This document shows positions 62,420 to 64,000 of a DNA stretch of 64,000 nt, one piece after another. The DNA comes from Oscillospiraceae bacterium. GTDB taxonomy: Bacteria; Bacillota; Clostridia; Oscillospirales; Acutalibacteraceae. The stretch lies in contig SVQH01000005.1 in the NCBI GenBank assembly GCA_015065425.1, forward strand, positions 52,337 through 116,336. Direction: 5' to 3'. Each line of letters opens with the position of its first letter. The stretch's first letter is position 1. The notes below the pieces were generated by a model. It searched no databases. It was not told the origin of the DNA and saw nothing but the letters and a program-made list of their open reading frames with translations. The position numbers and the translations under genes are program-made.

Positions 62420-62662
62420 TCATGTGAGAGAATTACCTCTGTACGATGTAGGATTTTCCAAAGCATCATAGGAAATACTCTCTCCGTCAAAGTATATGAG
62501 CTTATCCTTCCATGTATCGTTATATGAATACGTAACGGTATCAAGTAAGAGTAAGGGGTCAGAGGTAGAATAATCATAATGCTTTCTTGTGAGAATATTA
62601 CCTCTCTTGTCACACTTTATCGAGGCAAGGCGGAGAGCAGAATCTCTGCCGAATGAAAACAC
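62420..62662 (-). pseudogene. RHS/YD-repeat fragment
   Basis: This 80-codon fragment reads as RHS/YD-repeat sequence: YDYSTSDPLLLLDTVTYSY, then NDTWKDKLIYFDGESISYD and ENPTSYRGNSLT. In intact RHS proteins the last motif is normally followed by TWE or similar and continues for hundreds of residues. Here a TGA stands where Trp is expected (ACA TGA GAA AAG GG), with a further stop soon after. No start or promoter is convincing. It is a decayed remnant, downstream and in the same orientation as the RHS toxin gene at the window edge, as left behind by toxin-cassette exchange. Confidence 0.75.
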
Positions 62663-62734: not shown

Positions 62735-63439
62735 TCAAGTCCAGCCGTTTCTTATCTTAAACTGTGAAAATTCTTCAACATTAAATGAAGGAAAATCTGT
62801 TATTTCAAACAAATCATAATTAAGGTCTGTTGATACAAACAGAAAATATTCTGTTATACCGTTGTTATTCTTTAATTTGAAGTAAAGTATCTCATTTCCT
62901 TTTGTATCAACATCATCTACACATAATTCTTGGATATTCCCACCTGAAAAACCAAGTTTTTCGTGACATAACTTCAGTATTTCTGAATACTCAATTGAAT
63001 TATTTGACATAATAAATCCGTCAAAACTGATAATAATCGGTCTTTTTGTCATTTTATCAACATTCAGTTCTTTGTTCCAGTCATTTGCTTCTTTCAATAA
63101 ATTGACTGTTAAATCGTTATATGTATCAAATGAAAAACAGACATCTTCATAAAAATATACATAATCGGAATCTGCTTTCTGACAGATAACAAAAACACTT
63201 TCTGTTTCCCCGGTAATAAAACATGGGGTAATGAATTCAAATAAAACTCTGTCAAAGGAATCCGTTTCTATAATTTTATAATCAGTCTCAGACCCCTTCA
63301 AATCAGGATAAAAAATTCCGGGAACTGCGTAGGCACCACAAATTAAAAGATTGGGATAATCTTCTGTTTTTATTTCTTCTGTACAACCATTCAGAATAAT
63401 ACAAAGTAAAATAATCACTATAATTTTGATAATTTTCAT
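62735..63439 (-). CDS. Lipoprotein, candidate immunity protein for the RHS toxin
   Basis: This 234-residue protein starts with a lipoprotein signal (IIVIILLCIILNGC, lipobox Cys19) and has no domain I recognise. The rest is acidic, rich in aromatic and Asp/Asn residues (YYFYEDVCFSFDTY-like stretches). GGAAAGGATGG supports the ATG at 63439. It begins 30 bp after the stop of the RHS C-terminal toxin-like domain on the same strand, exactly where polymorphic toxins carry their immunity gene. That role is inference from position. Its lower GC content than the housekeeping genes to the left fits a transferred cassette. Confidence 0.65.
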   Translation of the reverse strand: MKIIKIIVIILLCIILNGCTEEIKTEDYPNLLICGAYAVPGIFYPDLKGSETDYKIIETDSFDRVLFEFITPCFITGETESVFVICQKADSDYVYFYEDVCFSFDTYNDLTVNLLKEANDWNKELNVDKMTKRPIIISFDGFIMSNNSIEYSEILKLCHEKLGFSGGNIQELCVDDVDTKGNEILYFKLKNNNGITEYFLFVSTDLNYDLFEITDFPSFNVEEFSQFKIRNGWT

Positions 63440-63469
63440 TGTTACCATCCTTTCCATCTAATTAGCCCG

Positions 63470-64000
63470 TTAGAAGGAAGCAAAATATGCAAGAGCCGCA
63501 CTAAAAGCATATTCAGCATGTTGCCTGTCAACATTTCCTATAATATCAGCAGTATATTCCCATGGTGGATTATAATAATTTTCATGTATAAATTTACCCA
63601 CAGGATTCTTCCCTCGGGAAATCAGATTAAATAATGCAGAAGGAAGTGCTATATATAATATATAATCATCAATTCCTATAAGTTTTTCTTGTAAAATATG
63701 ACCATATTCATGTTTCAAATAATTCGCTCTGTATTCATAAGAGTATGCATCGAGATTATGATTCAAAAAGATAATTCCACCAATAGACCAGGAGGTCAAA
63801 AAATCATTTGAGTGACGAATAACTAAAGCATCCTTATAAAATGTAAAATATTTTGTTGCGAATACAGCATTTAATTTATGTTCTTCAAGAACTTCCTTTA
63901 CTCCCATTGGAATATTGGAAGTTGTTCCCGAAGCACCGACCCCATCCGTACCTTTAACATGCATAGTCCCTGTTACATCAACATACATCACCGGGTTATT
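63470..64000 (-). CDS. RHS-repeat protein C-terminal end with HExxH toxin-like domain, cut by window
   Basis: The reading frame is open to the right edge (NNPVMYVDVTGTM), matching the end of the RHS core where NP-x-x-YxDPxG marks the junction to a variable C-terminal domain. About 150 residues follow with a metallopeptidase-like HEYGH motif in YLKHEYGHILQEKLIG and a conserved NPPWEYTADIIGNVDRQHAEYA near the end. RHS proteins are polymorphic toxins whose variable C-terminus is the active part. A peptidase activity is inferred from HEYGH alone. The main protein lies beyond the window, and the true start is not visible. Confidence 0.8.
   Translation of the reverse strand, partial: NNPVMYVDVTGTMHVKGTDGVGASGTTSNIPMGVKEVLEEHKLNAVFATKYFTFYKDALVIRHSNDFLTSWSIGGIIFLNHNLDAYSYEYRANYLKHEYGHILQEKLIGIDDYILYIALPSALFNLISRGKNPVGKFIHENYYNPPWEYTADIIGNVDRQHAEYAFSAALAYFASF

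Follow-up and report, generated by a model that had tools for sequence, protein, structure and literature searches.

The window analysed here, a 64,000-nucleotide stretch (G000:C40:52337-116336) of a 2.79 Mb genome in 59 contigs, ends where contig C40 ends, and this end cuts through an RHS gene. Its last 531 bases hold, on the minus strand, only the 3′ part of this gene; the remainder lies beyond the contig end (Table 1). The frame opens with 11 core-like residues, recognised by eye, and continues into a variable tip that contains HEYGH plus NPPWEYTADIIG. The initial annotation had described this joining of an RHS-core terminus to a HEYGH domain, and the description holds: a like junction (NNPV..DP.G or close) is present in RHS relatives, with DVTG in the window where these have DP.G.

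Also as initially annotated, a lipoprotein gene lies 30 nt 3′ of the tip stop, given a start at the ATG at 63439. The ORF as a whole spans 62735-63457; the chosen start yields 234 residues and has a ribosome-site-like stretch, GGAAAGGATGG, just 5′ of it. The N-terminus, MKIIKIIVIILLCIILNGC, combines a signal and a lipobox as in bacterial lipoproteins, and the lipobox cysteine is invariant in four homologues. Beyond the lipoprotein is an RHS remnant, on which the initial annotation was silent. Promoter and terminator scans gave scores no better than those of shuffled sequence.

Table 1. Features at the right end of the window (coordinates are window positions)
Feature	Position	Strand	Remarks
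Tip gene ORF	63470-64000	-	176 aa, open at window end, begins NNPVMYVDVTG
RHS-associated core, C-terminal end (NNPVMYVDVTG, 11 residues)	63968..64000	-	ORF list; like junction in RHS relatives
RHS tip, zincin-like domain (~165 residues, stop included)	63470..63967	-	Relatives and invariant residues in 16 rows
HEYGH motif in tip	63712-63698	-	ORF translation
PWEYTAD motif in tip	63565-63545	-	ORF translation
Lipoprotein, putative immunity protein, family i	62735..63439	-	234 aa, lipobox cysteine 19; homologues after tip in L004, L094, L145
RHS/YD-repeat remnant, 3′ of lipoprotein	62420..62662	-	Best matches RHS genes in L054, L004, L055

Residues 35-150 of the tip are 52% identical to the C-terminus of a 2110-residue RHS protein (E 5.4e-28), a likeness beyond chance, and this protein is also followed by a homologous lipoprotein. 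A contig scan with the window tip alone returned 33 pattern stretches, none confirmed as relatives; scanning named genomes with an alignment of three close rows (A5) yielded at least 49 relatives. These divide into two groups: A, the tip family proper, and B, solo proteins mostly of about 125-220 residues with a hydrophobic N-terminus and HEYGHTIQSL.LGPLY-like and TEKWAN-like motifs. Group B is spread over many Clostridia, with one copy in the window's own genome (C37:8288), and the profiles of the two groups match at an hhalign probability of 99.3%. Tip-family searches found matches in 19 of 394 genomes of the order (single-protein query, E 0.01), 18 of 391 of the class (E 1e-4) and 8 of 31 of another order of the same class (E 1e-10), counts that take in the window's genome and distant solo relatives. 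Among 299 genomes of the phylum searched with alignment A3 at E 1e-10, only the window's own genome was found.

All 16 aligned group-A members, including the window, share invariant H, E, G, H, Q, P, S, W, E, A, G and Y residues. The group-A pattern is HE(Y/W/F/R)GH..Q with, unless the tip is truncated, a later WE..A. In a joint alignment of 47 tips and solo relatives H, E, G, H and Q remain invariant, and a later E, A and G are each conserved in at least 90% of rows. Zincin metallopeptidases (clan MA) are marked by HExxH and a conserved third ligand further along the chain; motif and conservation together suggest such a pattern here, with the glutamate of the W-E..A as the putative third ligand. 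The tip would thus be a zinc metallopeptidase built on HExxH plus the glutamate of PWExxAD.

Searched with the tip, Pfam, NCBIfam, PADLOC and PDB sequences gave no match, the tip-family profiles match no PDB chain by sequence, and plasmid and phage collections likewise gave no match; a PHROGs search returned weak matches only (E 0.01 or worse). Metallopeptidase models (M36, M3, M78, M12B, M57, M50B and eCIS_core) match one to three members each at E 0.006 or worse, and unrelated models score similar E-values. Several candidate families were tried and rejected. Peptidase M48 has no Pfam match to the tip, and hhalign against one M48 protein gave 2-4%, confined to the HExGH helix, compared with 0.1-0.6% for shuffled copies. 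The PVC metallopeptidase model (eCIS_core, PF13699) matches one of 16 members at E 0.28 and one of 47 at E 0.1. Pfam includes models for some of the Tox-MPTase1-5 families; Pfam-A scans gave no such match. A Pfam match of the trimmed tip to HincII (E 0.13) is below cut-off. The tip belongs to a toxin-type family that recurs across genomes but is not listed in the libraries searched, and among the titles and abstract starts listed from the open-access collection none describes this tip or these lipoproteins.

We also noted several proteins outside the RHS-attached set. Solo membrane-like proteins with HEYGHTIQSL...TEKWAN are found at L002 (G000:C37:8288), L015, L017, L019-L022, L029-L045 and most of L096-L135; two that were checked show nothing above the Pfam cut-off and nothing in NCBIfam. 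They are perhaps unstudied membrane-associated metallopeptidases. Two members of the joint alignment, taken by ORF length to be L096 and L125, match Pfam LacAB_rpiB (best E 2.3e-5), and these long ORFs may be fusions of a HEYGH domain with a sugar-phosphate isomerase. The RHS-less family members L138, L139, L140 and L144 have hydrophobic N-terminal stretches and basic ends, with no lipoprotein neighbour seen (within 386 bases for L144), and are perhaps domesticated tips. In Bacteroidales, L130 (JAFSTI010000174.1) encodes an RHS protein that ends in a related HEYGH tip, and the next gene product is lipoprotein-like by eye, so the tip-lipoprotein pairing may extend across phyla. HExxH also occurs in other RHS tips of the order (L056, L071 and L163), where the next genes are of the membrane, lipobox and membrane type, respectively.

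Intact group-A tips are located at the C-termini of RHS proteins of 2110, 2197, 2151 and 2127 residues, and the RHS-core model TIGR03696 scores above cut-off in relatives L003 and L005. By eye, N-termini resembling Sec signals are present in L004, L046, L047 and L048, and the RHS gene on contig C53 of the window's genome starts similarly. The only RHS core above the family cut-off in the window's genome is on C26 (L055, G000:C26:34000-45581). This ORF of 1378 residues has a different tip, HNH-like by eye, and the next protein, of 259 residues, has no lipobox by eye. Thus, in this genome the lipoprotein accompanies the tip, and RHS genes do not all have one.

Sixteen RHS-attached group-A tips have room for a neighbour, defined as 250 or more bases downstream, and in 13 of these 16 the next gene has a lipobox (L088, L087, L047, L089, L053, L048, L004, L052, the window, L054, L046, L090 and L145), against 15 of 69 other RHS tips from the same order scored by the same rule. 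The Fisher p of 1.5e-5 ignores relatedness and, like the other p-values given here, is too small because controls share genomes and tips share ancestry. Under this shared rule the three remaining neighbours are two membrane proteins and one soluble protein: L092 is followed by a membrane-anchored member of lipoprotein family ii (see below), the L130 neighbour counts as membrane by rule but as a lipoprotein by eye, and in L067 the tip is truncated and the neighbour soluble. L091, also attached to RHS, has no room downstream and is not in the count. The lipobox and membrane rules are home-made; a first rule, stricter than the later shared one, gave 12 of 15, or 12 of 16 once L067 is included (p 1e-4 against controls). 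Within the tip set, L087 and L088 are near copies (95%), L090, like L067, carries a truncated tip, core and tip of L053 lie in different frames, and the core of L145, like that of the window, was recognised by eye.

The controls were drawn from 92 RHS places, namely 30 with loci (L056-L085, with L067 moved to the tips) and 40 of the other 62 (L163-L202); 20 were left out, and two that carry the tip family (G054:C20:75376 and G179:C8:18024) were removed. The tip profile has no match to L163-L202 at E 1. Of the 69 controls, 15 have a next gene with a lipobox, 35 one with a membrane or signal segment and 19 one of neither type, or 7/15/7 of 29 and 8/20/12 of 40 in the two subsets; an earlier rule had given 8 lipobox, 14 membrane and 8 soluble for 30 controls. 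Envelope-type neighbours (lipobox or membrane/signal) thus follow 50 of 69 control tips, compared with 23 of 50 window ORFs taken from a rough gene list (Fisher p 0.003). Among group-A members that show no RHS core, L094 and L095 have a lipobox neighbour and L093 a membrane-anchored relative of family ii, L010, L138, L139, L140, L012 and L013 have no lipobox neighbour, L144 has no ORF within 386 bases, and L025 has no room. By position and by recurrence (13 of 16 lipobox), the lipoprotein is a candidate immunity gene directly 3′ of the tip.

By BLAST and phmmer, the neighbours of the tips belong to three lipoprotein families. Family i follows the tip in the window, L004, L094 and L145, the last two from a single genome (G1099). 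Family ii comprises L087, L088, L089, L090, L092 and L093, and family iii L047, L048, L053 and L046, with L052 and L054 mutually tied and loosely placed here; the neighbours of L095 and L130 fall in none of the three. Had homologous tips never been followed by the window's lipoprotein family, the immunity proposal of the initial annotation would have failed; family i instead recurs at three further tips. This recurrence and the recurring lipobox neighbour support the tip and a lipid-anchored partner as a unit. Mapped on the tip tree, all labels including the solo proteins require 9 changes, compared with a mean of 13.9 for shuffled labels, and none of 200 shuffles was as low. Family ii and the solo proteins account for this clustering; taken alone, families i and iii do not exceed shuffled labels (95 of 500 and 227 of 500 as low). 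Partners thus seem to have been exchanged now and then. Some homologues of family i have no tip beside them (L151, L152, L153 and L155); in G255, G212 and, twice, G243, the 1.1-1.5 kb seen upstream contains no tip match at E 1, and two matches in G405 are marginal.

The remnant downstream of the lipoprotein is 39-51% identical to its best-matching RHS genes. Within it, 77 bp (62536-62612) are identical to the last 77 bases of contig C53 (L159), on which a further secreted-type RHS gene of this genome breaks off as the contig ends. Such an identity is expected where an assembly breaks within an RHS repeat, and it suggests that the window tip may be part of the C53 gene or may have been displaced from it. 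RHS pieces also lie 3′ of the cassette in L004, L046, L052, L053 and L054, as in the window, while none were seen in L047-L051. Probably, tip and partner move as one cassette through recombination in the RHS repeats, leaving RHS remnants downstream.

WapA is a Gram-positive RHS toxin with changeable tips and cytosolic immunity. The protein encoded at the window's end would share the Gram-positive RHS body and the changeable tips; according to the available text of one report (PMC5566331), WapA of Bacillus subtilis is a tRNase, whereas the window tip is zincin-like. By analogy, the nearest worked example for the tip and its lipoprotein is VgrG2b/Tpe-Tpi. In the available part of its description (PMC6899460), the metallopeptidase is active in the periplasm, and the immunity proteins are periplasmic, lipid-anchored or membrane-anchored. 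Like the VgrG2b C-terminal domain and Tpe1-Tpi1, the locus pairs the tip of a polymorphic effector, here a predicted peptidase, with envelope immunity that includes lipoproteins; unlike them, it would use an RHS body with a Sec-like signal in Clostridia in place of Gram-negative type VI delivery (PMC6899460, available part).

TslA-TilA provides a case of lipoprotein immunity in a Gram-positive bacterium. As far as its available description goes (PMC10730906), an extracellularly active toxin is neutralised by a lipid-anchored immunity protein in Bacillota, a role that is putative here, while the toxin is a phospholipase with type VII secretion and reverse domain order; the likeness drawn here is one of description. 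Tox-JAB-1/Imm65 likewise combines an RHS tip with a lipobox immunity protein, although in Bacteroidetes and with a JAB domain (PMC3482391, available part). The same portion of that 2012 survey also places zincin-like HExxH domains in RHS toxins, as Tox-MPTase1-5 and as the PVC metallopeptidase (eCIS_core) with HExxHxxQ-E, families from which the window tip differs in having no Pfam-A or NCBIfam match, with eCIS_core reaching E 0.28 in one of 16. It names Imm65 as the only lipoprotein immunity in its collection and describes all but a few of the immunity proteins known at the time as cytoplasmic, and to that extent agrees with the initial annotation, which had called lipid-anchored immunity unusual. 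Such a partner is not rare in this order, since a lipobox neighbour follows 15 of the 69 control tips and a membrane/signal neighbour another 35.

We consider it likely, with a probability of roughly 0.7, that the locus encodes a polymorphic RHS toxin of the WapA kind, secreted through Sec by a Clostridia bacterium, that the variable tip is its toxin domain, a metallopeptidase active on the outer side of the membrane, and that the lipoprotein is the immunity protein. The tip family, its attachment to RHS, the conserved zincin-type residues, the lipoprotein as next gene and the signal-like N-termini of relatives can all be read from the sequences themselves. In the predicted mechanism the RHS body is exported and presents the tip, which, provided that it is a peptidase, would attack envelope proteins on the outer side of the target's membrane. 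The lipoprotein, predicted to be anchored on the outer face, would bind and block the tip, and the producer would be protected because its own membrane carries this lipid-anchored inhibitor at the outer face. Counted against this reading are the family i homologues without a nearby tip (G255, G212 and the two in G243), which fit orphan immunity but also a wider role; the seven RHS-less tip relatives without a lipobox neighbour (L010, L012, L013, L138, L139, L140 and L144, the last with 386 bases); and the distribution of families i and iii on the tip tree, which shows no clustering beyond that of shuffled labels.

Position and a lipobox cannot alone separate immunity from a role of the lipoprotein as surface anchor, adaptor or delivery partner of the RHS protein, and a lipoprotein with such a proposed role, MafA beside MafB, appears in the available part of the 2012 survey (PMC3482391). 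An adaptor for the RHS body should be constant, yet the partners belong to three different families, neighbours of other kinds follow other RHS tips of the order, and copies of the partner exist without a nearby tip, so we regard this role as unlikely. Still less probable is that the HExxH domain releases the RHS protein by self-processing and is not a toxin. The PVC metallopeptidase, with the same HExxHxxQ-E pattern, is described in that part of the survey as mostly a releasing enzyme (PMC3482391); here no further domain follows the HExxH domain in the RHS proteins examined, and hhalign against one eCIS_core protein gave a probability of 1-2%, with nothing aligned beyond the HExxH helix.

Two further explanations concern the state of the window copy and where the tip acts. 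The tip may enter or lodge in the membrane or the cytosol, with the lipoprotein blocking binding or entry and not enzyme activity. A long hydrophobic stretch between core and tip domain in L014, L026 and L027 and the hydrophobic N-termini of solo relatives are consistent with entry; this stretch is missing, by eye, from the window tip. We consider this reading rather improbable. There is somewhat more to be said for the window copy being a displaced, silent cassette from RHS recombination, an orphan tip that works only once recombined onto an active RHS gene. The contig breaks right at the core, an RHS remnant lies downstream, 77 bp are identical to the end of the other RHS contig, and orphan tips are known for RHS in Salmonella (PMC3967940, available part). 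Against this, the reading frame of the tip continues without a stop through the junction with the core as far as the contig reaches, and intact versions of 2110 to 2197 residues exist in relatives. A silent cassette is a possibility to which we give the smaller share of belief.

Beyond the single locus, the reading of the tip as a toxin domain held off by a lipid-anchored immunity protein allows a more speculative extension. RHS toxins as a class in this Clostridia order might fight at the outer face of the membrane, and the tip might be a membrane-face protease recruited from the widespread solo HEYGH family and kept in check by lipid-anchored inhibitors from at least three families; we put this forward tentatively, as something we doubt more than we believe. 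What is new is a putative zincin-like toxin family absent from the libraries searched, together with three lipoprotein families as candidate immunity proteins. The conserved, membrane-associated HEYGHTIQ... family, which has no family name in those libraries, is likely kin of the toxin domain. For Gram-positive RHS toxins, the proposal would add a testable site of action other than the cytosol.
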